Origin: Desertivirga xinjiangensis
Lineage (GTDB): Bacteria; Bacteroidota; Bacteroidia; Sphingobacteriales; Sphingobacteriaceae
Assembly (NCBI RefSeq): GCF_024436435.1
Contig: NZ_JAFMZP010000013.1
Location: 62,001-126,000 of the forward strand
Length of the DNA stretch: 64,000 nucleotides
Reading direction: 5' to 3'
In this document: positions 48,501 through 64,000 of the stretch, in pieces
Layout of the letters: each line of letters opens with the position of its first letter
Position numbering within the stretch: the stretch's first letter is position 1
The notes under the pieces: model-generated
Database searches by the model: none
Told to the model about the DNA's origin: nothing
Seen by the model: the letters and a program-made list of their open reading frames with translations, nothing else
Position numbers and translations under genes: made by a program

Positions 48501-48614
48501 TTGGATACGAATAACGGACGTGCAGAATTGAAATTACAACAGAAACTCAGCCAGGGAACATATATCCTTTCGGTTGCAGGAGCTGGCTCACAAAAGATAG
48601 TTGTGCAGGATTAA
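45528..48614 (+). CDS. T9SS-exported choice-of-anchor I type beta-propeller protein with Calx-beta domain
   Basis: 1028 aa with a signal peptide (LLLFFIGSIFANAHAQ). Domains in order: a lamin-tail-like N-terminal beta domain (about 20-220; TTITITDAKYTANTIAQCDG), a Calx-beta domain (about 235-345; FLSVDEGAGSVTVTLLLENP, QEMDEYFVLSLEDL), a long WD/YVTN-like propeller of the choice-of-anchor I family (MITFSPDGNKIMTANEGQPN, RSRSKGPEPEGLTVATIQGN, SYAGDHGPEGIIYISADKS), and at the end a type IX secretion sorting domain (VVYPNPLRGTTLNLELKK to SVAGAGSQKIVVQD). Such proteins are secreted or cell-surface attached; some relatives have phosphatase or esterase activity, but no catalytic site is evident here. 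Single-gene unit with its own terminator. Confidence 0.87.
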   Translation: MKKLLLFFIGSIFANAHAQTQFQPGDLVPVAYRMSALGTEDEIALLTLVDILPGTTITITDAKYTANTIAQCDGGLVWTAPATGLGAGNVIRIENDIPKVSVGTIAGKKFGLSSGGDQVIVYAGTAQTPTYITAMSANNWELTNTECTGGKSMRPATLEDGKSSIQLSSAPGNAAGVSANAFYNGAQQGSPAELRALILNPANWVTSNKDTAPQTWPAFAFPGSSIPGNTSTIAFKDKFLSVDEGAGSVTVTLLLENPDAGTASLVIKDAPFSTTDASDFNISNKSLNFSAGSLTTQTVTISIDDDNVQEMDEYFVLSLEDLIGVSLKGSQYLTVYIRDNDRKAPVATQEIQLNYVNSFKPNSTTGSTTEIVVYDPQTQRLFMTSAVQDRLDIADFSDPAAIKLIKDIDMSSYGGVTSVAVKNGIVAVASPASPEHNNGSVVFFNTDGDFQNQVTVGALPDMITFSPDGNKIMTANEGQPNTDYSIDPEGSVSIIDISGGLSSVDQSKVTTLDFTTFNSQEAALIASGIRKTKASSTLSQDFEPEYITISEDSKKAWVTLQENNAVAEVNLETNAISSIWPLGKKDFNVNGSGLDASDNSGFVHISNYPVKGYFMPDAIASFTANGKTYLVSANEGDEKEYEGFEERTTVSAVNLDPATFPNAEVLKEAHNIGRLRITSLNGDTDNDGDYDELIMVGPRSFSIWDADTKTIVYDSKDDFELITSQHPLFAGLFNSDSESNGLKNRSRSKGPEPEGLTVATIQGNTYAFVGLERIGGVMVYNITDPANVKFVDYKNNRSTTSYAGDHGPEGIIYISADKSPDNKPYLLVANEISGSVSVFGMGGSVLPVDMLSFDADLEKSGVVTLKWSTASEQNNDYFSIEKSSDGKNFVLLAKVLAKGDGKSSQEYQVTDHNPSTGINYYRLTQTDKDGTRTEPRTKWINVASLADQQALVVYPNPLRGTTLNLELKKSSQVTSAVSLYDLSGKLIYSNVLDTNNGRAELKLQQKLSQGTYILSVAGAGSQKIVVQD

Positions 48615-48630: not shown

Positions 48631-48664
48631 AAAAGCACCCTCCTGTTTAGGAAGGGTGCTTTTT
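48631..48664 (+). terminator. Rho-independent terminator after the propeller-protein gene
   Basis: AAAAGCACCCT (48631-48641) pairs with AGGGTGCTTTT (48653-48663) around an 11-base loop, ending in a T-run. It also argues against any start of the next gene before 48665. Confidence 0.88.
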
Positions 48665-48713
48665 GCGTAAAATCATTTTTACATTTTTAATATATACAAT
48701 AGTCTTTTTAATC

Positions 48714-50462
48714 ATGAAAGTTATTACTGAAAAGGAATTCGCGAAAGCTGTTCATCTGGATAAGCTCCAACTGGCCGGCCTCACTTCATTTTTGATGGAA
48801 ATAACCAAGATCAATGAGGTAAACGAGGTATTAAACGCTACGAGACATCTGGACGGACTCGACTTTATTGACAAGCTTTTGGAAATCCTCCAGGTAAAAA
48901 TTGAAGTGAACGAGCAGGAGCTGAAAAAGAACATACCACTTTCGGGGGCATTTATCGCAATAGCTAATCATCCTTATGGAGGCATTGAGGGATTAATCCT
49001 TTTGAAAGTCTTGTGTATGATACGGCCAGAGACGAAGCTGATAGCCAATTTCCTGTTAAAACGAATTCCCAATATTAGTAAACATCTGATTGCTGTAAAT
49101 CCCTTTGATAAGATAGATCATCCCTCCAGTATCAGCGGTATAAAGTCGGCTTTGAGGTTGTTAAATCAAGATGTTCCCATTGCGATATTTCCTGCAGGGG
49201 AGGTTTCTGCTTTTCAGCACGGAGTACAGCAGATCACAGATAAACAATGGCATCCGGTTGCTGGAAAACTGATCAACAAAGCCGGAGTCCCTGTGCTGCC
49301 CGTTTATTTTCATGGAAATAATGGCTTGTTGTTTAATTTATTAGGCCTCATTCATCCGGCTTTGCGTACAGCCAAACTTCCTTCTGAGCTTTTTAACAAG
49401 CAGGGTCATACCATAAGGCTCAGGATTGGCAAACCGGTGCAGACATCAGAACAGGAACAGCATACAAACGCCCGCGATCTGTTAAATTATCTTAGAGCCC
49501 GGACCTATGTGTTGGGCATAGGACTGGAAGGTCAGAAGCGCCTTTTTAGTAATAAGTACTTGTTTAAGATCCGTAAGAAACCAGAAGATATTGTGCCACC
49601 CCAGGATGTCAGCTTACTCAGGACCGAGATAGAGGGCTTACGCTCGTTCAGAAAGGTCATGCAGGAGAAAAATTACGAGATCTTTATTTCACCTGCATCA
49701 GAAATACCTGTTGTTTTACAGGAAATAGGTCGTCTGAGAGAAATTACCTTCCGGGAAGTTGGAGAGGGAACCAACAAGTCGATAGATCTGGATAAGTACG
49801 ATATTTATTATAACCACCTGTTTATCTGGGACTCGGAGGCTGAGTTGCTGGTAGGTGCTTACCGTATTGGCAAAGGCAATGAAATAACATATAGCCTGGG
49901 TAAAAAAGGATTTTATGTGGCAGAACTTTTTAAGGTAAAAAAGGAACTCTTGCCTTTATTAAGCCAGAGCCTCGAACTGGGGCGGTCCTGGGTGCGCAAG
50001 GAGTACCAGCAAAAAGCGCTTCCAATGTTCCTTTTATGGAAAGGAATCATGAAGTATCTGCTTGCCAATCCCCGTTATAGCTATCTTATTGGCCCCGTCA
50101 GCATAAGCAACAAGTTCTCTAGCTTCTCAAAGTCACTGATGGTGAACTATATCTTAAAGCATCATTTTGATGCAGAGTTGTCAAAATTAGTTAAGCCCAG
50201 AAAAAAGTTCAGAGCAGATTTTTCGAAGATAGACGGGGAGGTACTGCTGGAAACAAAAAAGACGCTGAAGGATGTGGATAGCCTGATCACAGAACTTGAA
50301 CTTTCAAACATGAAAGTTCCTGTGTTGCTTCGGCATTACATAGCCTTAAATGCTAAAATTATCTGTTTCAATATAGATCCTAAATTCTCAGATAGCCTGG
50401 ATGGTTTCCTGGTTTTAGATCTGAAGAACGTGCCCGCCGAAATGATGGAGAAGCTGAAGTGA
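48714..50462 (+). CDS. olsF: Bifunctional acyltransferase, OlsF-like aminolipid (ornithine/glycine lipid) synthase
   Basis: 582 aa from the ATG at 48714 (MKVITEKEFAKAV); the open frame to 48663 runs into a terminator and is rejected. The N-terminal half is a PlsC-type O-acyltransferase: AIANHPYGGIEGL (NHx4-type motif with Glu, about residue 84), KHLIAVNPFDKIDHPSSISG, IAIFPAGEVSAF (about 159) and VPVLPVYFHGNNG. The C-terminal half is an OlsB-like N-acyltransferase (hemolysin/GNAT fold): LREITFREVGEGTNKSIDLD, YDIYYNHLFIWDSEAELLVG, AYRIGKG, and ELGRSWVRKEYQQKALPMFL. Fused enzymes of this kind (OlsF, including one from Flavobacterium johnsoniae) make ornithine lipids; which amino acid is used here is not known. 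It is probably membrane associated. Confidence 0.85.
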   Translation: MKVITEKEFAKAVHLDKLQLAGLTSFLMEITKINEVNEVLNATRHLDGLDFIDKLLEILQVKIEVNEQELKKNIPLSGAFIAIANHPYGGIEGLILLKVLCMIRPETKLIANFLLKRIPNISKHLIAVNPFDKIDHPSSISGIKSALRLLNQDVPIAIFPAGEVSAFQHGVQQITDKQWHPVAGKLINKAGVPVLPVYFHGNNGLLFNLLGLIHPALRTAKLPSELFNKQGHTIRLRIGKPVQTSEQEQHTNARDLLNYLRARTYVLGIGLEGQKRLFSNKYLFKIRKKPEDIVPPQDVSLLRTEIEGLRSFRKVMQEKNYEIFISPASEIPVVLQEIGRLREITFREVGEGTNKSIDLDKYDIYYNHLFIWDSEAELLVGAYRIGKGNEITYSLGKKGFYVAELFKVKKELLPLLSQSLELGRSWVRKEYQQKALPMFLLWKGIMKYLLANPRYSYLIGPVSISNKFSSFSKSLMVNYILKHHFDAELSKLVKPRKKFRADFSKIDGEVLLETKKTLKDVDSLITELELSNMKVPVLLRHYIALNAKIICFNIDPKFSDSLDGFLVLDLKNVPAEMMEKLK

Positions 50463-51000: not shown

Positions 51001-51049
51001 ATAGGTTTAGTTAAGGATCTATTAATTTTAGGTGAGCAGGGTTTTGAAT

Positions 51050-51586
51050 ATGTCCCATACCACTATTGGTTCGTTTGAAGAATTGTTCCGGGACAAATAC
51101 CGAAAGCTTTGCTATTTCGCTGTGCAGCTTATCAAGGACGAAGACTCAGCTAAAGATATCGTTCAGGAAGTATTTGTTACTTACTGGAATACCAAAGACA
51201 CCTTGCCTGAAGATATGTCGGCGAATGGCTTTCTATATGCTTCAGTGCGAAATGCCTGCTTAAACTGGTTAAGAAGACAGAAACTGGAACATACCTACCT
51301 CAACAAGCAAAGTCTCGACCCTTCCGAAGATGCAGTAGCTCTTAATTCCATTATTCGCTCAGAAGTGCTTGGTGAAATTCATAAACACATCAGCGCTCTG
51401 CCACCTAATTGCCAGATCGTTTTCAGAATGGGATATCTTGAAGGATTAAAAAATCCTCAGATTGCTGAAAAGCTGGGAATCTCAGTAAATACGGTAAAAA
51501 CTCAGAAAAAAAGAGGACTTCAGTTGCTTAAAATGCGCATGAACCCAGACAGCTTCGCTATTTTTCTGTTCTTTTTTCTAAAATAA
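51050..51586 (+). CDS. ECF (sigma-70 family) RNA polymerase sigma factor
   Basis: 178 aa from the ATG at 51050 (MSHTTIGSFEELFRDKYRKL); an in-frame GTG lies at 51032. Region 2 is clear (LIKDEDSAKDIVQEVFVTYW) and so is region 4 with its HTH (GYLEGLKNPQIAEKLGISVN, TVKTQKKRGLQLLK). Sigma factors of this group act with a membrane FecR anti-sigma and an STN-bearing TonB receptor: ligand binding at the outer membrane releases the sigma factor. The FecR gene follows at 51724 and the receptor at 53091, so the whole set is present. The targets are presumably the downstream genes. The C-terminal tail FAIFLFFFLK is unusually hydrophobic. Confidence 0.95.
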   Translation: MSHTTIGSFEELFRDKYRKLCYFAVQLIKDEDSAKDIVQEVFVTYWNTKDTLPEDMSANGFLYASVRNACLNWLRRQKLEHTYLNKQSLDPSEDAVALNSIIRSEVLGEIHKHISALPPNCQIVFRMGYLEGLKNPQIAEKLGISVNTVKTQKKRGLQLLKMRMNPDSFAIFLFFFLK

Positions 51587-51723
51587 CTCTCTTTTTGAAC
51601 TTTTTTAAAAAAAAAGTTCCTTTCGTTTCACCCACTTTCATTTTTCAAGTTTTATATATACAAATTGACCCGGATACTGGATGCTAATCTGGAGTACAAT
51701 TGAATCAGAGTTTAGAGATCTTC

Positions 51724-52917
51724 ATGGAAAAGCAGGAAAACGTTGTTTATACAACCGGACAAATTTTAAAATATCTCAGGGATGAGCTGACGGAATCGGA
51801 GGAGCAATCCTTCGTGCAATGGCTCAATGAAGATCCTTCAAACAGGGAATTGGTGGAATCTTTCAGAGATACGGCCAAAGTTCAAAAAGAAATTGATTTT
51901 ATTGATTCTCTCGATGTTGATGCAGAATGGAAAGGGCTTTCAGATCGCCTGTTTGATAGTAAAGAAATGTTTTATCAATCCCGCAGATTTTGGTATTACA
52001 GCAGCGCTGCTGTTCTGCTCTTATCATTAGGAATAAGCTTGTGGTCGCAAAAAAATAAGTACACTACTAATAATCCCACCACAGCACGTAAAAACAAAAC
52101 AGTCGACATTCAAGCCGGAGGCCAGAAAGCAATTCTTCAGCTTGCAGACGGATCGCAGGTTGAGTTAGGGAACAACGAAGTTCACTTAAAGGAAAAAGAC
52201 GGTACCATTATAGATGGTGAAAAAGGTGTATTGTCTTATGAAGACAAAGCCGGTCACAAGATAGCCGGCAATATTTTTAACACGCTTATCATTCCCCGTG
52301 GAGGTCAATACAAAATGATCCTTCCCGACGGATCAAAGGTATGGTTGAATTCCGGATCAGTACTTAAATACCCTGTAAGTTTTTCTGGCGCTGAAAGACG
52401 GATCGAACTACAAGGCGAAGCTTATTTTGAAGTTGCAGAAATACTGAACAAGAAGGACAACAAAAAAGCTCCGTTCATCATAAACTTTAATAACACAGAG
52501 GTTGAAGTTCTCGGAACCCGCTTCAATATTAATTCCTACTCCCCAGTAAGTAAGACCACATTACTTGACGGATCAGTGCGGATCAGCAAAGGTAAAGAAA
52601 GCGAATTGCTGAAACCTGGCTACCAGGCCATCGCTTCCGGTTCAGCAATTAGTGTCGCCGAAGCCGATACTTACAAAGCCATTGCCTGGAAAGAAGGCAT
52701 CTTCTACTTCAACGAAGACAACTTAAGGGAAATTATGGAAAAGGTTGAGCGTTGGTACGACGTTAAGGCGGAATGGAAAGGCGATCCCGGCAACCGCAAA
52801 TTCAGCGGAACTATCCGCATGCAGGCCAGCCTTCAACAAGTTTTAGAGATGCTCCACCTGGTAAGCGGAGCCAGTTTTGAGCTTAATGACAGAATTGTCG
52901 AAATAGATTTTAAGTAA
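51724..52917 (+). CDS. FecR-family anti-sigma factor
   Basis: 397 aa from the ATG at 51724 (MEKQENVVYTTGQILKYLRD); the open TTG frame from 51700 is less likely. Cytoplasmic N-terminus of about 87 residues (LTESEEQSFVQWLNEDPSNR) to hold the sigma factor, one membrane helix (FWYYSSAAVLLLSLGISLW, about 89-107), a periplasmic FecR domain (NTLIIPRGGQYKMILPDGSK, RRIELQGEAYFEVAE, VEVLGTRFNINSY) and a C-terminal DUF4974-like STN-type domain (FNEDNLREIMEKVERWYDVK). It transmits the state of the SusC receptor to the sigma factor encoded upstream. Confidence 0.95.
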   Translation: MEKQENVVYTTGQILKYLRDELTESEEQSFVQWLNEDPSNRELVESFRDTAKVQKEIDFIDSLDVDAEWKGLSDRLFDSKEMFYQSRRFWYYSSAAVLLLSLGISLWSQKNKYTTNNPTTARKNKTVDIQAGGQKAILQLADGSQVELGNNEVHLKEKDGTIIDGEKGVLSYEDKAGHKIAGNIFNTLIIPRGGQYKMILPDGSKVWLNSGSVLKYPVSFSGAERRIELQGEAYFEVAEILNKKDNKKAPFIINFNNTEVEVLGTRFNINSYSPVSKTTLLDGSVRISKGKESELLKPGYQAIASGSAISVAEADTYKAIAWKEGIFYFNEDNLREIMEKVERWYDVKAEWKGDPGNRKFSGTIRMQASLQQVLEMLHLVSGASFELNDRIVEIDFK

Positions 52918-53090
52918 CATAAAATAAGTATGATGAGTATACAGAAAAGAAAGGAAGGGTGTAATATGAGTTAACTTTACTTTGGTCTGACCCCGAAACA
53001 GACCTGATGATTTTTCGAGGATGGCGGGATGGAATATGCTGTTGCCCGGATGATGAGAATAGAAATAAAAATTTAACACCCCTTATTGGT

Positions 53091-56000
53091 ATGAAACAAA
53101 CTCTTCCCTGCATGAGCAGGGAGACATGCATGTTATTGATTAAAAAATCAGGATTGATTATGAGGCTAACACTCTTTTTATTGATCGCAGGATGTCTTAC
53201 TGTAAACGCTTCAGGACTTGCTCAGGTAGTAAGTATGTCGTATAAAAACACAAGCTTAGAACAAGTATGTCTTGCTGTACAGAAACAAACCGGTTACTTT
53301 TTTCTGTATGACAAGGATGTACTTAAAAAAGCAGGTAATGTTACTGTTAACATTAAAAATCTCGAGCTTAATGATGCTCTAAAGGCCATCACCGCCGGAA
53401 AGCCCTTGACTTATAAGATCATCGATAAAACGGTGATCATCTCAGAACTTAAAGTGCAGAATAACAACTTAAGTCAGGAAGAGATCACGGTGAAAGGTAC
53501 TGTGAGGTATAAAAACCAATCAGGAACTTTCGAAAGTTTGCCAGGAGTTAGTGTTACCCTGAAAGGAACCAGGAGAGCTGCAAATACGGATGTTAATGGC
53601 AACTATGTGATTAAAGTACCTTCAAACGCTACTTTGATATTCAACATGGTCGGCTTTACCGTAAGGGAAATCCCAGTGAATGGCAGGACATCGATTGATG
53701 TGGATCTGGAAGAATCAATGACTAAGCTGAATGAGGTTATCATCACTGGTTATGGAACCTCTGAGAGGAAAGAAAACCAGGTAGGTAGTGCTTTTCAGGT
53801 GACTTCAAAGGATCTGGAGATGAAGCCATTGGACAGGGTAGACAGGTTGCTGGAAGGTGTGGTGCCTGGTTTAGAGTTCAATCTTCAAGACAATTCAACT
53901 AGCAGTGCAAGACCTCGTTTTGAAACCAGAATTCGGGGAGAAGCTTCTTTTTCTGCTGCTAATGATCCGCTTTGGGTAGTTGACGGAGTGCCTCTCAATA
54001 CCGGAGACGAAACTAATATGATACTGGGTGTAGAGACCAGCATTAGCCCTTTAACCTACTTAAATCCCGCAGACATTGAGTCTATTGTTGTATTGAAGGA
54101 TGCAACCGCCACCTCAATTTATGGAGCCAACGGTTCAAATGGTGTAATATTAATTACAACCAAAAAGGGAAAAGCAGGCGCTAACCGGATAAACTATTCA
54201 TTTAGAGGAGGAATTAGTTCCGTGACAGATAACCGTTTTAAAGTTCTTAGTTATGCAGATTATGTTATGCTTTATAACGAGGCGCTGGCGAACAACCCTG
54301 ATTCGAAAGAAAAGCCATTGCAAATGGTTGGAGAAGGCACAGATTGGTATGATCTTTATTTCCAGACCGGTGTAAATACCAATCACGATTTGTCTTTCTC
54401 GGGAGGTAACGAAAAAAATCACTATTACGTTTCGGGGTCCTATTTTAAACAGAAGGACATCATGATCAAGAATACAACAGACCGGTTTTCTACACGGGTT
54501 AATCTTGACAAGACGATCAACAAATCTTTAAACCTTTTTTTCCAGATAGGAGCCTCTTATAACATTAACAATATGTTTACTCCTAATGATACCTACTATA
54601 CGAACCGACCAACTTTAAGTCCTTACGATCCTACCGGACTTTATACCATTGCATTCTATAATAAACTTCCGGATGCAGAATATAATGATAACAGGCAAAA
54701 CGCTGCAGCTCTTTTAGGGAATATAGGCGGAACTTTAAAGTTCTTTCCATGGCTGAAATACACCACCACCAACGGTGTAGACTTTTCGTCTGTCAGTGAA
54801 AACAGATATACCTCGGAACGTACTTTTTCCGGGCGGTCAGACGCGTATGCCTATAAGTCGCAAAGCAACAGTTTCAACTGGACCAGCATGCACCGGGTGA
54901 ATTTTGACAAGCAATATAAGAAGAATGACATTTCCTTAATGCTAGGGGGAGAGGCTATCGAACGGTCACGTCGATCTGTCGGATCAACCGGATGGAGTTT
55001 TCCTAATGATGATATACGAGAAGTTACCTATGCCGTAAACACTGAAGGAAGAAGCAGTGGCAATGAACAGGCAAGCTTATCCTACTATGGGCAACTAAAC
55101 TATTCTTTTGACAGAAGATATAGTCTGATCGCAAGTTTTCGTAATGATGGAAATTCAGACTTTGGTAGCGATGTAAAATGGGCAAGCTTTAGGTCTGCGG
55201 GTGTAGCTTGGACAATAAGCAACGAAAAGTTCTGGAAGCTTAAACCGATTAATTTCGCGAAGCTCAAATTCAGTTATGGAACTAATGGAAACTCCCGGAT
55301 TGGCGCTTATGTTTCAAAGGGTATCTATGACTTCAGTGTAGACAATAATTACAACGGAGAATCAGGTGCGATAATGTCCAAAGGCGAGAATCCAATCCTA
55401 TCATGGGAGAAAACTTATTTGCTGAACACCGGACTGACTCTTGGATTCTTCGAGAATAGAATTTCCGTCGAAGCCGAATATTACCGCAATACCACAAAAG
55501 ATATACTGGATGATGTTTCTGTATCATGGACGTCTGGAACCAGAAGAATCTTGCAAAATGTGGGATCAGTGAGGAATAGTGGCATTGAGCTTACACTGAA
55601 TACAAAAAATATCTCCAATGAAACATTTGAATGGAGCACGAATTTTAACATAGCTCACAATAGTAATCGTGTACTTGAACTTTATAATAATAATGATCGT
55701 GTACTTGATACTAAAATAAGAAGAGTTGGCATGGATGTAAACTCTTGGTATCTTATTCGTTGGGCTGGCGTTGATCCACGCGATGGTGCTGGAATGTGGT
55801 ATGACACAAGAGGGAATCTTACAAGAAATTATAACGCGGCCAACAGGGTAGTTGCTGGAACCGCTACACCCGATGCTTTCGGTGGAATGACAAATACATT
55901 TAGTTATAAAGGAATTTCTTTAAGAGCACTTGTTGCGTACACTGTTGGTGGTAAAGAGTTCAGCAGGCTGGAAAGAGAGACAGAATCAGATGGAGCTCAT

Positions 56001-56354
56001 TTGGATGAGGATAATCAGTCTGTTAATCAACTTGACCGTTGGAGAGAGCCGGGAGAACTAGCAAAATCGCCAAAACAAGTACTAGATGGTACAGCCCAAT
56101 ACACGATGAATTCAACGAGGTTTTTGCATAGCAAAAGCAACCTGAGACTACAAAACATCAGTATGAGTTATGTAATTCCTCAGAAGTTCGCTAATCGCAT
56201 AAAGTTGAATAATGTCAGTGTTTATGCTCAGGCAGATAACCTTGGAATCTGGACTCCATACAGAATTGCCGATAATCGCAATAGTTATGCGAACTCTTTC
56301 AGAGCTTACCCGAATCCTCTTACTATTTCATTCGGATTAAATGCCGGTTTTTAA
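53091..56354 (+). CDS. SusC-like TonB-dependent receptor with STN signalling domain
   Basis: 1087 aa from the ATG at 53091 (MKQTLPCMSRETCMLLIKKS), a start typical of this FecA-type group; the frame is open from 53007. Signal peptide (LTLFLLIAGCLTVNASGLAQ), then STN domain (YKNTSLEQVCLAVQKQTGYF, LKAITAGKPLTYKIIDKTVI), carboxypeptidase-regulatory-like domain (LPGVSVTLKGTRRAANTDVN), linker LNEVIITGYGT, plug (IESIVVLKDATATSIYGANG) and barrel ending FGLNAGF. The STN domain is what contacts FecR, so this receptor both imports and signals. It is followed 6 bp later by its SusD. The ligand is not evident; the M16 protease gene downstream hints at a peptide or protein. Confidence 0.94.
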   Translation: MKQTLPCMSRETCMLLIKKSGLIMRLTLFLLIAGCLTVNASGLAQVVSMSYKNTSLEQVCLAVQKQTGYFFLYDKDVLKKAGNVTVNIKNLELNDALKAITAGKPLTYKIIDKTVIISELKVQNNNLSQEEITVKGTVRYKNQSGTFESLPGVSVTLKGTRRAANTDVNGNYVIKVPSNATLIFNMVGFTVREIPVNGRTSIDVDLEESMTKLNEVIITGYGTSERKENQVGSAFQVTSKDLEMKPLDRVDRLLEGVVPGLEFNLQDNSTSSARPRFETRIRGEASFSAANDPLWVVDGVPLNTGDETNMILGVETSISPLTYLNPADIESIVVLKDATATSIYGANGSNGVILITTKKGKAGANRINYSFRGGISSVTDNRFKVLSYADYVMLYNEALANNPDSKEKPLQMVGEGTDWYDLYFQTGVNTNHDLSFSGGNEKNHYYVSGSYFKQKDIMIKNTTDRFSTRVNLDKTINKSLNLFFQIGASYNINNMFTPNDTYYTNRPTLSPYDPTGLYTIAFYNKLPDAEYNDNRQNAAALLGNIGGTLKFFPWLKYTTTNGVDFSSVSENRYTSERTFSGRSDAYAYKSQSNSFNWTSMHRVNFDKQYKKNDISLMLGGEAIERSRRSVGSTGWSFPNDDIREVTYAVNTEGRSSGNEQASLSYYGQLNYSFDRRYSLIASFRNDGNSDFGSDVKWASFRSAGVAWTISNEKFWKLKPINFAKLKFSYGTNGNSRIGAYVSKGIYDFSVDNNYNGESGAIMSKGENPILSWEKTYLLNTGLTLGFFENRISVEAEYYRNTTKDILDDVSVSWTSGTRRILQNVGSVRNSGIELTLNTKNISNETFEWSTNFNIAHNSNRVLELYNNNDRVLDTKIRRVGMDVNSWYLIRWAGVDPRDGAGMWYDTRGNLTRNYNAANRVVAGTATPDAFGGMTNTFSYKGISLRALVAYTVGGKEFSRLERETESDGAHLDEDNQSVNQLDRWREPGELAKSPKQVLDGTAQYTMNSTRFLHSKSNLRLQNISMSYVIPQKFANRIKLNNVSVYAQADNLGIWTPYRIADNRNSYANSFRAYPNPLTISFGLNAGF

Positions 56355-56360
56355 TTTTTT

Positions 56361-57815
56361 ATGAAAAAAATAATTTTTAAAATCAGTATCCTTTTCATAA
56401 TTAGCGTTTTCTATTCTTGTGAAAAATTTCTTGAAAGGGAGCCTATTGGAAGAATAGGTAAAGAAGCATTGTTCTCAGATGTGAACGGTGCAAGACTAGC
56501 ACTTAACGGATCTTACAACCATATGCTTTCTTACTACAGGAAGGAGTACGGGATGTATGCAGATATTGCCTCTGACAATGTATTCAAAAGAGTAGATGGC
56601 CCTGCTGTGATGTTAAGTCAATTTGATTTTGTTAGTAATCCTGAAGAGGATGAAGCGGCAGTTGGGCACATCTGGCAATCTATCCTTGAGAGTCTTAACA
56701 ATGTTAATAATGTTCTAAATGCACTTCCCGGGCTTGCATCGACCTATCCTAATCAAATAGCCGAAATAGAACGCATAAAAGGCCAGGCTTTAGTATTGAG
56801 AGCTATTTGTCACTTCGACCTCTGTAAGACATTTGCTCAACCTTATAATTTTACCTCAGATGCTTCTCATCCAGGCGTTCCGGTACTTTTAAAAACTCCG
56901 GCTCCGGGAACCTTGATTTCAAGGGAGCCTGTAAAGAATGTTTACAATCAAATTATTGCCGATTTGAACGAATCTTTACCCCTGCTTAAAACTCACTTTA
57001 GCAAAGATCAGGCTATTGTCAACTATTATGCAGCTGTTGGCTTACTTTCACGTGTCTATCTGTATATGGGAGAATCTGATAAGTGTATTGCCGCTGCAAA
57101 TGAAGTAATAGCTGACAACGTTTTTTCGCTTGCAAGTGCAACAGAATATGCAGAGGTGTTTCTTAAAGAGACCATACCGGGACCATCAAAAGAGGTATTG
57201 TTCCACCTTTCAGGAAAGGGAATTCCAAATACAATATCTAGCATGGATATTAATTCGGCGTTCTCAGACTCTTCTGGTGCTTATATAGCTTCAAATAAAT
57301 TGATTGAGCTTTTCGATGAAAATGACATCAGGAAGTCAACGATGTTTACAGTCAGAAAGACGCCGGGAGTAAATTATGGCACCATGTCTACTAAGAAGTA
57401 TGCTAATGGAAAGGTGTCTAAGGATGATCCTTTTTATGTGAAGGTCATTCGATTGTCGGAGGTTTATTTAAACCGGGCTGAAGCCAAATTTCAGAAAGGA
57501 TTATATCCTGAGGCTGCTGAAGATATTCGTATCATTTCTCAAAGGTCTCATCCAAGTCAGACGATATCAATAACTTACAATACGCCACAGGAATTGGAAC
57601 AAATTATACAGAATGAACGCAACAGGGAACTTTGTTTTGAGGGACACAGATTGTTTGATCTAACCCGTACTAAGAAAGATCTGGTTAGAGGTGCTGGATG
57701 TAATTCGTCTGTATGTCTTCTGACATACCCTAACAACAAATTTATTTTACCTATCCCAAGACCGGAATTAGATGCAAATAAGGGTATGAAACAGAATCCT
57801 GGTTATGACAATTAA
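56361..57815 (+). CDS. SusD/RagB-like nutrient-binding lipoprotein of the protease-linked locus
   Basis: 484 aa with a lipobox (FIISVFYSCEKF, Cys about residue 20). SusD features are seen in KGQALVLRAICHFDLCKTFA, AVGLLSRVYLYMGESDKC, VIRLSEVYLNRAEAKFQKGL, IIQNERNRELCFEGHRLFDL and the terminal IPRPELDANKGMKQNPGYD. It is shorter than the two xylan SusD proteins and more like the RagB branch, whose best-known member binds peptides in Porphyromonas; that parallel is only suggestive. It forms a pair with the STN-type SusC upstream. Confidence 0.93.
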   Translation: MKKIIFKISILFIISVFYSCEKFLEREPIGRIGKEALFSDVNGARLALNGSYNHMLSYYRKEYGMYADIASDNVFKRVDGPAVMLSQFDFVSNPEEDEAAVGHIWQSILESLNNVNNVLNALPGLASTYPNQIAEIERIKGQALVLRAICHFDLCKTFAQPYNFTSDASHPGVPVLLKTPAPGTLISREPVKNVYNQIIADLNESLPLLKTHFSKDQAIVNYYAAVGLLSRVYLYMGESDKCIAAANEVIADNVFSLASATEYAEVFLKETIPGPSKEVLFHLSGKGIPNTISSMDINSAFSDSSGAYIASNKLIELFDENDIRKSTMFTVRKTPGVNYGTMSTKKYANGKVSKDDPFYVKVIRLSEVYLNRAEAKFQKGLYPEAAEDIRIISQRSHPSQTISITYNTPQELEQIIQNERNRELCFEGHRLFDLTRTKKDLVRGAGCNSSVCLLTYPNNKFILPIPRPELDANKGMKQNPGYDN

Positions 57816-57826
57816 GAACTGAAGAG

Positions 57827-58303
57827 ATGAAGACAAGATATATATTACAAATTTTAACGATAACAATAATCTCTTTTTTGTCATCCTGTTCAAAAGAGGA
57901 GGTTACACCGTTTGACCATCCTTTTTTTCACATTCATGTAGACAATCAGGACAGAGTTTCAGTAGCTTCTATCCGGAGAGACACAACAGATTATAATGTT
58001 TATTTAAGTGCGAAGTTACAGTTTGAGCCAATTGATGTTCAATATGAGATTGTACCTGGTGACGGACTTGAGGCTGGACGGGACTACGAGCTTGTAACCA
58101 CCAGTAATACCTTAAGGTTCGCTCAGGGGATCTTTGAACGGCCTATTAGTATTGCCTGGAAAGAGTCGGTTCTTGATCCGGAAAAAAATAATACGCTAAC
58201 AATTAGGTTGTTAAGTAATAGTAAGGGCTACACTATTGGGCTTCCTGGACCGGATAAGATACAAAGCATGTTAGTAATAACTAAAGTGCAAGTTGGTAAA
58301 TAA
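57827..58303 (+). CDS. Small lipoprotein (DUF4843-like), accessory to the SusCD pair
   Basis: 158 aa. Lipobox at ITIISFLSSCSKEE. The mature part is a single beta-sandwich-like domain (FFHIHVDNQDRVSVASIRRD, YNVYLSAKLQFEPIDVQYEI, IFERPISIAWKESVLDPEKN, TLTIRLLSN). Proteins of this size with the segment DYELVTTSNTLRFAQG followed by a T-L-T-I-R-L strand are common behind SusD genes. Its stop codon is directly before the M16 start (58305), so translation is probably coupled. A role in binding or in holding the SusCD complex is an inference. Confidence 0.7.
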   Translation: MKTRYILQILTITIISFLSSCSKEEVTPFDHPFFHIHVDNQDRVSVASIRRDTTDYNVYLSAKLQFEPIDVQYEIVPGDGLEAGRDYELVTTSNTLRFAQGIFERPISIAWKESVLDPEKNNTLTIRLLSNSKGYTIGLPGPDKIQSMLVITKVQVGK

Positions 58304-58304
58304 T

Positions 58305-61130
58305 ATGAGAAAAGATTTAAAGTTTCTTATTCTCCTGTTCATAGGTTCGTCTCTCAGCGTCAGATCTTTTGCTCAGAAATTACAGCAAGATCCCAACCTT
58401 GTAAAAGGAAAGCTTAAGAACGGCTTTACCTATTACATTTACAAAAATCCGAAAGCAGCCGGTCAATCCGTGCTGCGGCTTTTTGTAAACGCCGGTTCGC
58501 TTCAGGAGGATGAAGATCAGAGAGGGCTTGCGCACTTCATAGAGCATATGGCCTTCAATGGTACCAAGCACTATGCAAAAAATGACGTTATCGAGTTCCT
58601 CGAATCAAAAGGTGTAAAGTTTGGTGCGGATCTAAACGCGCATACCAGCTTTGACGAGACGATCTATAAGATCAGCTTGAATACCAAAGAAGAAAAAAAC
58701 CTTGAGAAAGCTATTGATATCATGGCCGATTGGGGATTCGGGATCACTTTTGATTCGTTGGAAATAGAGAAGGAGAGAGGAGTAGTTCTCGAAGAATGGC
58801 GTAGCAAACAGGGAGCTGACACGCGTTTAAGAGAACAGTACCTTCCGGTGTTGTTTAATCAGTCGCGTTATGCAGAACGTATGCCAATTGGTAAGGTAGA
58901 GGTCTTGAGACACGCCTCCAGGCAGCGCATCGTTGATTTTTATAAGAAATGGTACAGGCCAGATCTGATGGGAATTGCTATCGTTACAGATACAGATCCG
59001 CGTTTAGTAGAATCTTATATAAAGAAGGAGTTCAGCCAGTACAAACCGGCTGTTAAACCATCAAAGGCTCCAAGGGTTTACTATGATCTGCCAAAGCATC
59101 AGGATACATTATTCTCGATAATTACTGATAAAGAAGCACGTTCGGTAGAATTAAGCTTTTTTAATAAAATTCCTTCTTTCAGAGGCATTCGTACTCAGCA
59201 GGATTACTATCAGCAACTTGTCAGAATGTTTTTCAATGGCCTGGTTAAACAACGCTTTAGCCGGATATCTCAATTGCAGGACTCATTTAAGGACGGTGGT
59301 TTCTCTGTAAGTAATATCACCTTGAAAAATGGTGTGGTTGCAGGAGGTGTTGGCTTATACCAGGACCAGATCACCGAAGGGATTAGCTCTTATTTGCATG
59401 AAGTTCAACGAATTGTTCGTTATGGATTTACTTCCCAGGAGGTAGAAAAGTTCAAAAACGAATATATGTCGCTGATCCAGAGGTCGTTGAAAAATGAAGA
59501 TAAAACGGAGTCCTCAACTTATGCAGACTATATCCGCAATGATTTCTACGACAAGGATGTTGTCCAGGCTAAAACCGAGCGGAATAATCTGGCGCTTAAG
59601 CTGGCACCTGGTATCGATTCTTTGAGATTGATCAATTACCTGCGTTCTGTATATCATCAGGGCAATACAGTTATTTTGCTTACAGCACCAGAAAATCTTG
59701 CAGCTTCGGTTCCCGGTAAGGAGCAGTTGAAACAGCTTTTCACTGAAGCTACGTTGAAACCTGCTCTGCCATGGAAGGATGATCTGAATATCCCATCCAA
59801 ACTTCTTGCTAAGGAGCCTGCTGCCGGAAAGGTACTAAAGGAACAAAGAATACCAGAATTGGATTTGATCAAGTGGAACCTTTCCAACGGTACTACCGTT
59901 TACCTGAAGAAGACCACAGAAAAGAAGAACTATATCTCCCTTTCTGGATTCCGTGACGGCGGTATTTACGCATTGGATTCGAACCTTTTCGTTGCCTCAC
60001 AGTTTGTGAAGCCTGTGACAGGCTTAAGTGGAGCCGGAGAGTTCAGCCGTGCTGCGTTAACTCAATTTCTGACAGGCAACTCCGCTTCAGCGACACTTGC
60101 CTTGTCGAATACCCGCGAAGGTGTGGTAGCGAGCTCTGATTGGAAAGATGCGAAAACAATGTTTCAGCTGATGTATTTGAAATGGATGTTTCCTAATGCA
60201 GACTCGGTTACATTTGAACAGAGTAAGCGTAAAACTATCGAATCCGCCGAGTCTGCCAAGCTTTCCCCTCAGTACGAATATAATAAAGCAATCAGCAAAC
60301 TGCTTAAAGGTGAAGATGACTATCCTTCTGATCTTAGCGCCGAACGTATAAAGGCTGAGTTGAAATTCGAAGATATCATACCGGTATTTAAAAGTCGTTT
60401 TGGCTCGGCTAAAGACTTCCAGTTTGTTGTTGTTGGCGATTTTGAGGCAGATAGCATTCGTCCGCTGATCGAACAGTACATCGGAGGCTTACCAGCCGGT
60501 GAATATAAGAATGACTATGAGTATAAAGGCCCTGTTGGTGGTGATGAACAAAAAGGTGTTTTGATCTATGCAGGTCAGGCTCCAAAAAGTACGGTGAACT
60601 TGTTTTACCAAAGTAATGCGATAAAACATGATTACCCTGAAATCGCAGTTGAAAAACTTCTTCAGGAAGTATTGAAAGTGAAGTTACGTTTAAACCTTCG
60701 CGAGCAGAATTCAGGTGTTTACGGAGTTGGAGTAGCTATTTCTTCTACAAGTAAGCCTTCACCTCTGATCCGTACCCGTATTTCATTTACCTGCGCCCCT
60801 GAGGTTGCAGATTTTTTGACTCATCAGGCTAAACTGGAAATTGAGAAGGTAGCCAAAGACCCGGATTACTTTAAATCGGAATTGGCGAATATAAAGGTTC
60901 AGGAGATTGAAGGCTACAAGAAAGATAAAGAGAAAAATCTTTTTTGGAGCGCCGGATTACGTAATCAGTTCTATTATGGATTTAAAGATTATACGTATCT
61001 GAATAATTATGAAAGCCTGATCGAAAAGATCACGGCCAAAGACATAGCTTCGTTTGCTAAAAAATATCTTGTTAATACACCCGCAATTAAAGCGGTGTTA
61101 ATGCCCGAAAATTTTAAGACATTAAATTAA
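58305..61130 (+). CDS. M16-family zinc metalloprotease (PqqL-like, two-domain)
   Basis: 941 aa from the ATG at 58305 (MRKDLKFLILLFIGSSLSVR), which starts a signal peptide. The inverted zincin motif H-x-x-E-H is visible in LAHFIEHMAFNGTKHYAKND (about residue 76), with the distal Glu ligand in KERGVVLEEWRSKQG. The second half repeats the M16 fold (inactive half, ELDLIKWNLSNGTTVYLKKT and VVGDFEADSIRPLIEQYIGG). Full-length M16 clamshell enzymes degrade peptides and small unfolded proteins in the periplasm. In gamma-proteobacteria, TonB receptors for protein import are paired with M16 proteases (Fus system, PqqL). Here the gene is within a SusCD operon, 2 bp after the small lipoprotein gene, and overlaps the next gene by one base. 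Confidence 0.93.
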   Translation: MRKDLKFLILLFIGSSLSVRSFAQKLQQDPNLVKGKLKNGFTYYIYKNPKAAGQSVLRLFVNAGSLQEDEDQRGLAHFIEHMAFNGTKHYAKNDVIEFLESKGVKFGADLNAHTSFDETIYKISLNTKEEKNLEKAIDIMADWGFGITFDSLEIEKERGVVLEEWRSKQGADTRLREQYLPVLFNQSRYAERMPIGKVEVLRHASRQRIVDFYKKWYRPDLMGIAIVTDTDPRLVESYIKKEFSQYKPAVKPSKAPRVYYDLPKHQDTLFSIITDKEARSVELSFFNKIPSFRGIRTQQDYYQQLVRMFFNGLVKQRFSRISQLQDSFKDGGFSVSNITLKNGVVAGGVGLYQDQITEGISSYLHEVQRIVRYGFTSQEVEKFKNEYMSLIQRSLKNEDKTESSTYADYIRNDFYDKDVVQAKTERNNLALKLAPGIDSLRLINYLRSVYHQGNTVILLTAPENLAASVPGKEQLKQLFTEATLKPALPWKDDLNIPSKLLAKEPAAGKVLKEQRIPELDLIKWNLSNGTTVYLKKTTEKKNYISLSGFRDGGIYALDSNLFVASQFVKPVTGLSGAGEFSRAALTQFLTGNSASATLALSNTREGVVASSDWKDAKTMFQLMYLKWMFPNADSVTFEQSKRKTIESAESAKLSPQYEYNKAISKLLKGEDDYPSDLSAERIKAELKFEDIIPVFKSRFGSAKDFQFVVVGDFEADSIRPLIEQYIGGLPAGEYKNDYEYKGPVGGDEQKGVLIYAGQAPKSTVNLFYQSNAIKHDYPEIAVEKLLQEVLKVKLRLNLREQNSGVYGVGVAISSTSKPSPLIRTRISFTCAPEVADFLTHQAKLEIEKVAKDPDYFKSELANIKVQEIEGYKKDKEKNLFWSAGLRNQFYYGFKDYTYLNNYESLIEKITAKDIASFAKKYLVNTPAIKAVLMPENFKTLN

Positions 61131-62884
61131 TGGTTATGACAAAAAAAATAAACTTCGCCTTGCTGTTGCTGCTCTTCATTGCTGCAGTTTCAGGCTGTAA
61201 AAAAGACGATAGGGTTTACCCCAAAGAATTCGTTTCTTTTTCGTTCACTGAGAAGGATGAACAAGGGGCGGTTAAGGAATACTCTGGAACCATCATTGGT
61301 GATGAGATCGTTGTAGATCTGCCAACTGAAGTGGATGTTACTAACGTAGTTCCGGAATTTGAAGTGATCAACCCACGCACCATCGTACAGGTCGGAAAAG
61401 TTGTACAGGAAAGTGGCGTGTCTGTAATGGATTTTACAGAGCCGGTTACTTATACGGTTAGGGCTGAAGATAAGAGCACTAAATCTTATAACGTACGGTT
61501 CGAAAAAAAGATTGCTATAAAAAGCTATGGATTCTTTAAAGAGGATAACCCGAGCCTAACCGCAGATTATGCTGGAAAAATCAAGGGCAAAAAGATTGAA
61601 ATCGGAGTACCTGAATCAATTGATCAGACTCAATTAGTAGCTCGTTTTGAAACAACCAGTGGTGTTGTATTAAAAGTTAGCGGAGCAGACCAAGAAAGTA
61701 AAGTGAGCAAAAATAATTTTACGAGTGAGGTGCTGTATTCATTAAATGATGCTGGGCTTCTAGCTCCAATTGAGATTAAAGCTAAAACATATATCCTTGG
61801 TGCTAAGTGGATAATGATAGGGGATGAAAACATTATCGTACCAACGGCTTCTGGAATAAAAATGGCCATACATCCGATTTCCAATTTGCCATATTTAGTT
61901 TATCAAAGAACGGGGGTAGATGAGAGTAAGGTTGCGATTCCAGATGCTGAAAGAAAGATAGCCGTTATACGGTATACCGAAGAAGGTTGGGAACATTTAG
62001 GAGCGAAGACGGGAGTCAGTGACTCGAGAGCAGATGTACCTTCAATCTCATTTGATCAGGCAGGAGTCCCTTACATTAGCTTTAGAGATTTTGCGAGCAA
62101 AAGACCTACTGTATTGAAATATGTGAATTCTGGCTGGGCAGTTCAGGGACCGAAGAACTTTGGCCCGGTCAAAGTCGACAAACAGAGCTTTATAATTAAC
62201 AACAATAATGAACCTGTGGTATCTATTGTTAGTGACAACGGTCCAGCGCCATTTGTCAATCGCCAGTTGTACATCACCCATTTTGCGGCGAATCAGTGGT
62301 CAAATAATTCGCCTCTATCATCCATGTTGGTAGTTGCGGCAAATTTGTTTAACGGACTTGATGGAAAAACCTATCTTGCAACAATGGATAGGACTACAAA
62401 TGCCAATAAGTTGACTATGTTGAAGCTTAACGGTAATGTTTGGACACCTGTTGGGCCGACTTCATTCACGACTGCAGATAATGCATTGGGATTTACAAGC
62501 GCATATGGAGCAGCAGACAAAGAAGGGCAAGTATATATTATATTCCAGCAAAATCTGTCAAGCATAAGAAGAAACCGTATTCTCAAGTTTAACGGATCGA
62601 TGTGGGATGAGTTACCAATGCCAGCCACCAGTGAAAGTAAAAGTGATATGTATTGTATTGCTACTCATCCTGACGGTACCTTATACTACGCTTATGTAAA
62701 TAATTCCGGTCTTTACTTCCAAACGTTCAATAAAGCAACCAATAATTGGAACGCAAGCAGGTTAATTGTTTCGGGAGCTATTAACGGTTTTGATATGAAA
62801 ATTTCAAACACTGGAATCCCTTACCTTGCAGTAAGTGTTGGTGGGTCAAACAAAACATTCGTATATAAATACACAACTGAATAA
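61130..62884 (+). CDS. Surface lipoprotein with DUF5018-like domains and beta-propeller
   Basis: 584 aa (582 if ATG 61136 is used). The start overlaps the M16 stop (taatg). Lipobox: LLLFIAAVSGCKKD. Two Ig-like repeats of DUF5018 type occupy about residues 30-215 (VSVMDFTEPVTYTVRAEDKS, then SKVSKNNFTSEVLYSLNDAG). The rest is a six- or seven-bladed propeller with repeated blades (GIKMAIHPISNLPYLVYQRT, SISFDQAGVPYISFRDFASK, FIINNNNEPVVSIVSDNG, YCIATHPDGTLYYAYVNN, FDMKISNTGIPYLAVSVGGS). No catalytic residues are evident. It is probably a surface ligand-binding partner of the SusCD pair; the paralogous layout to XusE-type binders is only general. Confidence 0.8.
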   Translation: MVMTKKINFALLLLLFIAAVSGCKKDDRVYPKEFVSFSFTEKDEQGAVKEYSGTIIGDEIVVDLPTEVDVTNVVPEFEVINPRTIVQVGKVVQESGVSVMDFTEPVTYTVRAEDKSTKSYNVRFEKKIAIKSYGFFKEDNPSLTADYAGKIKGKKIEIGVPESIDQTQLVARFETTSGVVLKVSGADQESKVSKNNFTSEVLYSLNDAGLLAPIEIKAKTYILGAKWIMIGDENIIVPTASGIKMAIHPISNLPYLVYQRTGVDESKVAIPDAERKIAVIRYTEEGWEHLGAKTGVSDSRADVPSISFDQAGVPYISFRDFASKRPTVLKYVNSGWAVQGPKNFGPVKVDKQSFIINNNNEPVVSIVSDNGPAPFVNRQLYITHFAANQWSNNSPLSSMLVVAANLFNGLDGKTYLATMDRTTNANKLTMLKLNGNVWTPVGPTSFTTADNALGFTSAYGAADKEGQVYIIFQQNLSSIRRNRILKFNGSMWDELPMPATSESKSDMYCIATHPDGTLYYAYVNNSGLYFQTFNKATNNWNASRLIVSGAINGFDMKISNTGIPYLAVSVGGSNKTFVYKYTTE

Positions 62885-62890
62885 ACAATC

Positions 62891-62918
62891 TAAAGTCTGA
62901 GCCCTTGCCCAGACTTTA
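62891..62918 (+). terminator. Weak terminator between the propeller lipoprotein and the phosphoesterase
   Basis: TAAAGTCTG (62891-62899) pairs with CAGACTTTA (62910-62918) around a 10-base loop, followed by TTCTG. The U-tract is poor, so it may only reduce transcription into the next gene. Confidence 0.5.
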
Positions 62919-62933
62919 TTCTGACGCTTCATC

Positions 62934-64000
62934 ATGAACAAATCATTCTTAATAGCCCTAACCGGGCTATTTTTTTCAGTATCAGCCTTTAGCCAGTCTA
63001 AAGCAAAAGGCTATGTTTTCAACGACCAAAACTCGAACAGTACAAAAGACAGCAACGAAAAAGGAATCGGTGGCATTGCTGTAACCAATGGCGCTGAGGT
63101 TGTCCTTACGGATAAAACGGGCTATTACGAACTGCCTGTAGGCAATGACAATATCATCTCCGTGATTAAGCCAACGGGTTACCAGGTTCCCAAAAACTCA
63201 GACAATCTTCCCCAGTTCTTTTTCATCCACAAACCTGCCGGATCTCCGCGAATACTTAAATACAGAGGAGTATCTCCAACCGGACCTTTGCCAGAGCTTA
63301 TCAATTTTCCCCTCACAAAATCGAAAGAAAAAGATAACTATACGGCTCTTATTTTCGGAGACCCACAGGTGTACAATGAAGAACAGGTAGATTACTTTAC
63401 CCGCGGTGTGATCAAAGAGGTTGAAGGAATTAAGGGCGTCGCCTTTGGCTTAAGCATGGGCGACGAGGTAGGGGATAAGCTGACCCTTTTTCCGCAATAT
63501 GCCTCAGCCGTAAAACGTGTAGGAATTCCCTGGTACAACATGGTAGGAAACCACGATATCAATATGGATGTCAAAGCTGATTCACTATCAGATGAAAGCT
63601 TTGAAGCATTTTTTGGCCCTTCAAGTTACGCCTTTAACTATGGAAAAACTCACTTCATCGTTCTGAATGATGTGTTGTACCCTGATCCACGCAATGGAAT
63701 TGGCTATTTCGGCGGACTAAGACAAGATCAGTTCAAGTTTATTGAAAATGATCTGAAGTTCGTGCCTAAAGATTACCTTGTGGTAGTAACATTGCATATC
63801 CCGATCAGTGAACCTGGCTCTCTTTTCCGCGCTGAAGATCGCGTGAAGCTTTTTGAGCTCTTGGAAGACTTTCCTCATACACTTTCTATATCTGCCCATA
63901 CCCACATGCAGCGTCATGATTTTTATAGTTCCGGTAATGAATGGAAGCAGGATAAGCCTCATCACCATTTCAATATTGGAACAGCTTCTGGCGATTTTTA
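62934..64000 (+). CDS. Calcineurin-like metallophosphoesterase, exported (cut by window end)
   Basis: The first 355 codons are visible. Signal peptide: SFLIALTGLFFSVSAFSQ. An N-terminal metallophosphatase domain with carboxypeptidase-regulatory-like fold follows (GIGGIAVTNGAEVVLTDKTG). The calcineurin-like catalytic domain has the metal-ligand motifs GDPQVYN (about residue 141), GDEVGD (about 175), GNHD (about 203), TLHIPI (about 285) and AHTHMQ (about 321). Such proteins hydrolyse phosphomono- or diesters in the periplasm or at the surface. The usual first motif GDxH is GDPQ here, as in several bacterial relatives. Same strand as the SusCD/M16 operon and 50 bp after it, so a linked role (phosphate removal from the imported substrate) is possible. 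Confidence 0.9.
   Translation, partial: MNKSFLIALTGLFFSVSAFSQSKAKGYVFNDQNSNSTKDSNEKGIGGIAVTNGAEVVLTDKTGYYELPVGNDNIISVIKPTGYQVPKNSDNLPQFFFIHKPAGSPRILKYRGVSPTGPLPELINFPLTKSKEKDNYTALIFGDPQVYNEEQVDYFTRGVIKEVEGIKGVAFGLSMGDEVGDKLTLFPQYASAVKRVGIPWYNMVGNHDINMDVKADSLSDESFEAFFGPSSYAFNYGKTHFIVLNDVLYPDPRNGIGYFGGLRQDQFKFIENDLKFVPKDYLVVVTLHIPISEPGSLFRAEDRVKLFELLEDFPHTLSISAHTHMQRHDFYSSGNEWKQDKPHHHFNIGTASGDF

Follow-up and report, generated by a model that had tools for sequence, protein, structure and literature searches.

Import of a protein followed by its digestion is described for the Fus systems of Proteobacteria (FusA-FusC and YddB-PqqL), in which a TonB-dependent transporter is clustered with a dedicated single-chain protease of the FusC/PqqL-related part of family M16. 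Among M16B enzymes, PqqL and FusC are atypical in that both halves are joined in a single chain (PMC12731061). Import of oligopeptides is known for transporters of a different type, the SusCD pairs RagAB and BT2263-2264 (PMC10132118), and some SusCD loci include peptidases: Flavobacterium collinsii TRV642_0198-0209 has enzymes of families S9, S37, M24 and M43 and is linked to peptides (PMC10132118), and in Bacteroides thetaiotaomicron the M60-like peptidase BT4244 cuts at the cell surface before import (PMC11992087). The present analysis concerns bases 62001-126000 of contig 4 in the 5.5 Mb genome of Desertivirga xinjiangensis (Sphingobacteriaceae), a stretch of 64,000 nucleotides called the window below, near the end of which a SusCD pair is encoded together with an M16 protease and a beta-propeller lipoprotein. 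We consider it moderately probable, somewhat better than an even chance, that this cassette is a self-contained system by which a small polypeptide is imported and then digested. By analogy, its best reading is a Fus-like working built on SusCD, in a system that would not itself belong to the Fus family.

Eight genes follow one another on the + strand between positions 51032 and 64000 of the window (open reading frame, ORF, listing); families were assigned with Pfam and NCBIfam profiles:

51032..51586, + strand: extracytoplasmic function (ECF) sigma factor of the Bacteroidota type (TIGR02985, 156 bits), the first gene in 23/23 cassettes of the family
51700..52917, + strand: FecR-type anti-sigma factor (FecR and FecR_C domains)
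53007..56354, + strand: SusC-type TonB-dependent transporter with an N-terminal STN signalling domain (TIGR04056, E 3.9e-208; STN, 2.5e-9)
56361..57815, + strand: SusD lipoprotein lid (SusD_RagB, PF07980, and SusD-like_3, PF14322)
57827..58303, + strand: small lipoprotein (slp) of 158 amino acids with a Calx-beta/DUF1735-like fold (invariant Cys21; predicted model)
58305..61130, + strand: single-chain M16 zinc protease of 941 amino acids with a signal peptide (PF00675, E 3.2e-31; two PF05193 stretches)
61130..62884, + strand: lipoprotein of 584 amino acids with two immunoglobulin (Ig)-like domains and a seven-bladed beta-propeller (model, fold matches, lipobox and Trp columns)
62934..64000, + strand: metallophosphoesterase, truncated at the window end (MetallophosN, Metallophos and MetallophosC)

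An earlier note, made from the letters of this DNA, had read these eight genes in this order, with a full M16 bearing the motif HFIEH and with no glycosidase. The profile matches bear out all three points, since HFIEH stands at residues 81-85 of the M16 and no carbohydrate-active enzyme (CAZyme) family is found in the window's eight proteins (Pfam and NCBIfam scans); in the other cassettes, CAZyme scanning covered the propeller protein and phosphoesterase of locus L043 and the propeller protein of L118. The genes from SusC to the propeller nearly abut. SusC probably starts at an internal ATG rather than at the called start, and the M16 at ATG 58305 rather than at TTG 58293 of the ORF call. Adjacent SusC (TIGR04056) and SusD (PF07980/PF14322) genes place the locus among SusCD nutrient importers, in a genome with 77 SusD-like_3 matches. 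The top NCBIfam match of the FecR protein is the ferric-citrate FecR, well under cut-off.

The order sigma-FecR-SusC-SusD-slp-M16-propeller is complete in 23 of the 351 genomes of Sphingobacteriaceae searched, in cassettes that comprise the window's, L043 and 21 further loci. A two-row propeller profile, with three candidates scored per genome, finds 24 genomes at E <= 2.4e-53 and a next best match at 9.0e-26; an M16 profile, with two candidates scored per genome in the family and class searches alike, exceeds 1,300 bits in 23 genomes and then falls to 743. These gaps in score are partly by construction, as both profiles include sequences that they recover. Searches anchored on either protein return the identical 23 genomes, and the linkage between SusCD and protease, on which the earlier note had made its proposal depend, is strongly conserved. 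As a lone query against 100 genomes, the window's M16 shows a comparable step, from 981 bits in G052 (48% identity) to at most 511 bits elsewhere. A search with slp leads to eight loci, all with seven genes, in Sphingobacterium litopenaei, S. bovistauri, S. siyangense, S. faecium, Pedobacter ureilyticus, P. xixiisoli and two Sphingobacterium metagenome-assembled genomes; six belong to the 23, and the two assembled from metagenomes (L065, L066) add cassettes beyond them. Across 395 genomes of the class, the slp search finds the full seven-gene order in G681, from a different family, and two weak slp matches (G498, G452), and with the class-wide M16 profile, G681 and the window's own genome are the only two to score above 1,000 bits. 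From SusC to the propeller, the genes of the 21 loci measured mostly abut or overlap, apart from M16-propeller gaps of 88, 88 and 70 bases and an slp-M16 gap of 308 in L112, whose M16 reading frame is interrupted. Given this close spacing and an order shared by 23 of 351 family genomes, the seven-gene association is a conserved cassette and not a product of chance. Eight of the loci with weaker propeller matches (L121-L128) were examined, and none has SusC, SusD, slp or M16 in the stretch covered. The 24th strong propeller genome, G104, has a sigma gene followed by a single ORF (L134:533-2774) in which about 70 FecR residues run into the part of the propeller protein that begins near residue 163, apparently the remnant of an operon after internal deletion; a sensor fusion was considered and rejected, as no obvious membrane segment is seen by eye and the operon order is retained.

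The window's genus (g1) is distinct from the Sphingobacterium (g16) and Pedobacter (g13) genera. Two of the seven g13 cassettes (G143 and G328, both Pedobacter records) have M16s nested within the g16 Sphingobacterium group, and the window's M16 groups with the other five, at up to 70% identity. This nesting, together with the patchy carriage of the cassette, suggests from sequence that it has been transferred between genera. Transposase-like ORFs, identified by eye, stand near two cassettes (L043:14115-15512 and L133:18077-18964), which fits mobility. Two further loci carry duplicated elements upstream: a second slp copy lies immediately before the sigma gene at L107:1730-2212, beside an end-cut divergent SusC-like ORF, and an additional, divergent FecR-sigma pair precedes the cassette's own sigma gene at L113:1-1623.

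The M16 protease has a lineage of its own in these loci. In a tree of 42 M16 proteins, which does not include L065, L066 or L103 (nearly identical to L101), a branch with 100/100 support splits off the 23 cassette M16s (18 casA, 4 casB and 1 from outside the family); on its opposite side are 17 M16s encoded outside SusCD operons and those of two other SusCD loci, L041 and L059. Among the genomes searched, M16s of the cassette lineage occur nowhere but in the cassette. A SusD match was found beside just 2 of 35 non-cassette M16 loci (L183, L194) in flanks of up to 1.5 kb, which would miss a more distant SusD, and the pairing with SusCD is therefore special rather than a general property of M16 proteins. 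At the casB loci (L117-L120) the M16 is just 31-33% identical to the window's, as are non-cassette paralogues; replacement of the M16 at these loci is unlikely, since all four fall with the cassette proteins at the 100/100 split, but their long branch adjoins another, that of L133, in what is flagged as a possible false join, and the places of casB and L133 are less sure for that reason. A second SusCD locus with an M16 directly after SusD occurs in the window's own genome (L041:2054-11250, C11). Its M16 is 29% identical to that of the window and groups with non-cassette paralogues, and on this phylogeny M16 proteases therefore seem to have been recruited to SusCD loci on more than one occasion; the grouping of L041 with L059 carries the same long-branch warning. 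At L059:1-10321 (G001:C23), SusC and SusD are followed by two DUF4369/thioredoxin-type proteins and an M16, a layout perhaps suited to disulfide-bearing peptides.

Catalytic residues are well kept across the cassettes. Glu161 is intact in the window's copy, and in alignment HxxEH is present in 22/22 uninterrupted copies and Glu161, Arg803 and Tyr810 in 23/23. The best solved sequence relative is the M16 peptidase 9ldy (E 2.7e-110), followed by PqqL (6ofs, E 2.1e-75, residues 30-938) and FusC (6b03, E 4.8e-44), with relatedness to PqqL and FusC spanning the full length. A hydrophobic leader ends in A, G or S before a Gln at the cleavage step in 22/22 uninterrupted copies, none of which has a lipobox in the alignment. 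Signal cleavage before Gln agrees with the Q-rule of Bacteroidetes (PMC10653852). From these features, the M16 is inferred to be a soluble periplasmic enzyme.

Both accessory proteins carry the marks of lipoproteins. Cys21 of slp is invariant in 24/24 aligned rows, and a lipobox Cys is present in 23/23 propeller proteins. The residues after the lipid Cys (for example CSKEE and CKKDD) resemble the Bacteroidota lipoprotein export signal, from which we infer that both proteins are located at the cell surface.

Taken as an importer of polypeptides, the cassette would work in the following way. At the cell surface, the SusC barrel with its SusD lid, slp and the Ig-propeller lipoprotein would form a complex that captures a peptide or small protein, which SusC would move into the periplasm at the expense of TonB energy; there the clamshell M16 would cut it into pieces for peptide or amino-acid uptake at the inner membrane, and the phosphoesterase, where present, would trim phosphate esters. 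Occupancy of SusC would be signalled through its STN domain to FecR, freeing the sigma factor and switching the operon on. Gene content and order, conservation, the pairing with an M16 lineage, catalytic residues, signal peptides and predicted folds are the computed basis of this scheme, and the surface location of the lipoproteins, STN-FecR-sigma signalling, TonB transport and the periplasmic location of the M16 are carried over from known families. A polypeptide substrate is favoured because the enzyme kept in every cassette is a protease, of a lineage seen in no other setting in the genomes searched, and because no glycan enzyme was found among the genes; digestion after import is favoured because the sole protease has a signal peptide without a lipobox.

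The same sequence of import before digestion links the proposed mechanism to Fus. The earlier note had suspected a Bacteroidota counterpart of that system, and as a functional counterpart the idea stands as the best reading, given the linkage, the kinship of the M16 to PqqL and FusC and its signal peptide. As membership of the Fus family it does not: in place of FusA, the cassette has SusC with a SusD lid, two further lipoproteins and sigma-FecR control, no partner resembling the TonB-like FusB is among its eight genes, and the 11 PDB sequence matches of SusC are all SusC/RagA-type or TonB-linked receptor chains, with no FusA or YddB. The note's particular kinship to RagAB has weakened. The SusC and SusD families are common to the cassette, RagAB and BT2263-2264, and the cassette adds its own M16 and propeller lipoprotein; among solved structures, however, its SusC is nearest to 8aa4 (E 1.6e-101), with RagA second (1.9e-86) and BT2264 much weaker (2.2e-26), and its SusD is nearest to 3mcx and 3kez (best E 3e-38), with RagB far down the list at E 1.6e-12. 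Whereas the F. collinsii locus combines four peptidase families, the cassette's protease is an M16 only, and whereas the BT4240-50 locus uses an M60-like peptidase at the surface on glycopeptides, the sole protease here bears the signal peptide of a soluble protein, and CAZyme families were not found. The absence of such families from the window's eight proteins also sets the locus apart from polysaccharide utilisation loci. The propeller protein shares N-terminal Ig-like domains with the surface glycan-binding protein (SGBP) of the levan utilisome, and a seven-bladed propeller on a lipoprotein encoded beside a TonB-dependent transporter with XusB and BtuG, but unlike any of these it unites Ig-like domains and propeller in a single chain, encoded beside SusD and an M16. 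In XusAB and BtuBG the propeller serves as lid without SusD, which the cassette retains in 23/23 family loci. PusCD of Flavobacterium has SusCD, a FecR-type regulator and a phosphoesterase in common with the cassette, in which the phosphoesterase is optional and the M16 constant.

SusCD loci with peptidases are thus already known or proposed for peptides and glycopeptides, and pairing with a dedicated M16 was not found described: no account of it as a Bacteroidota import system is among the literature matches listed, which cover few subscription journals. Protease-associated import clusters are described for Proteobacteria in PMC6793856, where SusC is just an outgroup in a figure legend; text searches gave no mention of Bacteroidetes or SusD in the accessible part of that paper, and none of Bacteroid- or SusC in that of the M16 review PMC12731061. 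An M16-annotated Sphingobacterium protein appears in PMC4666044, the accessible part of which has nothing on such a locus.

Several observations weigh against import and digestion of a polypeptide. The eight genes include neither a peptide transporter of the inner membrane nor a cytoplasmic peptidase, and SusC and SusD show no special closeness to the peptide importers RagAB and BT2264. In L112 the M16 gene (L112:6765-9575) has an in-frame TAG at codon 89, just past HFVEH (codons 76-80), which is either a pseudogene mutation or a sequencing error. The best fold matches of the propeller are fucose-binding lectins and glycan enzymes, and three of the five nearest SusCD loci in the window's own genome bear glycoside hydrolases (GH20, GH92, GH20). 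These five were chosen by nearest SusD or SusC, with 10 ORFs from four of them scanned, and at about 27-34% identity in SusD/SusC they carry little weight as a guide to substrate.

The lectin-like propeller and the glycoside hydrolases of those related SusCD loci make import of glycopeptides or glycoprotein fragments the chief rival, in which the propeller or slp would bind sugar, SusCD would import the ligand, the M16 would remove peptide and enzymes of other loci would remove the sugar. We regard this as unlikely, though well short of negligible. Mucin glycopeptides are handled by the peptidase, SusCD and SGBP of B. thetaiotaomicron BT4240-50 (PMC11992087), which favours this rival; the lack of any CAZyme family in the window's eight proteins speaks against it. 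For slp no Pfam model matched; its predicted model (predicted local distance difference test score, pLDDT, 91.1) matches CBD2 of NCX1, a Calx-beta domain (Z 12.9, root-mean-square deviation, rmsd, 2.3, 113 residues aligned), followed by Bacteroides DUF1735-type domains at Z 8-10, one of them from an endo-N-acetylglucosaminidase. The Pfam matches of the propeller protein are all below cut-off. Its AlphaFold2 model (pLDDT 87.4; predicted template modelling score, pTM, 0.67) has strands before residue 224 and the propeller after it, the alignment contains seven invariant Trp, and the N-terminal part is matched over 200 columns by levan utilisome chain 8aa2_G at 22% identity. The propeller domain itself is closest to the PLL4 lectin (Z 28.4, rmsd 2.9, 297 aligned), then CylK (Z 28.3), GH145 BT3686 (Z 26.1) and PL25 ulvan lyase (Z 25.0), but unrelated WD40 propellers also score Z 23-24, so that the lead of the lectin, at 11% identity, is modest. 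XusB and BtuG are not among the matches listed in these fold searches, which is not evidence of absence. GH145 has a catalytic His. The title of 7esn names a His mutant of rhamnose-glucuronate lyase, and the propeller has no conserved His, its best column reaching 14/23; a role as a His-dependent lyase is disfavoured.

Sigma-FecR-STN control is classical for ferric ligands, but serves many substrates in Bacteroidota, and it bears on a second rival, piracy of a metalloprotein or peptide-siderophore that would be digested for iron or haem as in Fus. The M16 has as relatives PqqL and FusC, two enzymes with ties to iron supply (PMC6793856), and lipoproteins with seven-bladed propellers deliver siderophore (XusB) and vitamin B12 (BtuG) (PMC13142918, PMC10404256); against this, none of the eight genes, to which the family scan was confined, concerns iron, haem or siderophores, and we consider piracy improbable. 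Still less probable is a non-nutritional M16 that matures or clears what the cassette itself encodes, or that breaks down an antibiotic peptide or bacteriocin entering through SusC. AlbF/AlbE and PqqF do process peptide precursors (PMC12731061), and full-length M16 paralogues are common in the family, with 17 of those examined lying outside SusCD operons; a lineage of its own, however, encoded between two lipoprotein genes in a sigma-linked uptake operon, would be odd for quality control.

Whole, the phosphoesterase has 522 amino acids, with its stop 502 bases beyond the window end. The earlier note had placed it in the operon, which holds for 14 of the 23 family cassettes; it is on the opposite strand in four (L112-L115), so that 18 have it beside the cassette, and was not found in the stretch examined at five (L105, L106, L108, L110, L111) or at the G681 cassette. 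In an alignment of 17 copies, which like the tree excludes L065, L066 and L103, the metal-ligand motifs GD.Q, GD, GNHD, H288 and H322.H324 are invariant. It looks like an optional accessory, and the phosphorylated substrate that the note had entertained is weakly supported as a result. Scavenging of organic phosphorus with the phosphoesterase as main enzyme has the slightest probability of the rivals, since the enzyme, despite its frequent presence, its invariant motifs and the pairing of SusCD with phosphatases in Flavobacterium PusCD loci (PMC8115612), was not found beside every cassette, while the M16 is present in all, and lies outside the operon in the four loci with the opposite strand.

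Downstream of the phosphoesterase lies a convergent gene, short-chain dehydrogenase/reductase (SDR)-like by eye, and the end of the operon is therefore placed there. The upstream acyltransferase gene stops 569 bases before the sigma gene; window 48663-50462 encodes an acyltransferase domain fused to a GNAT-type Acetyltransf_5 domain, a layout that we take to resemble bifunctional ornithine-lipid synthases. Further upstream, window 45528-48614 encodes a secreted protein of 1028 amino acids with Calx-beta, choice-of-anchor I and type IX secretion sorting domains.

More broadly, and with a confidence that falls a little short of even, we propose that Bacteroidota own independently assembled machines for protein import and digestion, in each of which a SusCD utilisome is joined by a propeller lipoprotein for capture and by a periplasmic M16 of its own, a relative of PqqL and FusC. 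These would have moved between genera as a cassette and would admit a specific peptide or small protein whole and digest it inside, the M16 having been recruited to SusCD at least twice, in the cassette and in loci of the L041/L059 type. Sphingobacterium faecium, S. siyangense and Pedobacter xixiisoli are among the named carriers. Many SusCD loci without glycan enzymes lack an assigned substrate, and an exclusive protease partner offers a handle on the imported ligand. If the proposal is true, protease-associated import would reach beyond Proteobacteria into a second phylum, where another kind of transporter serves it.

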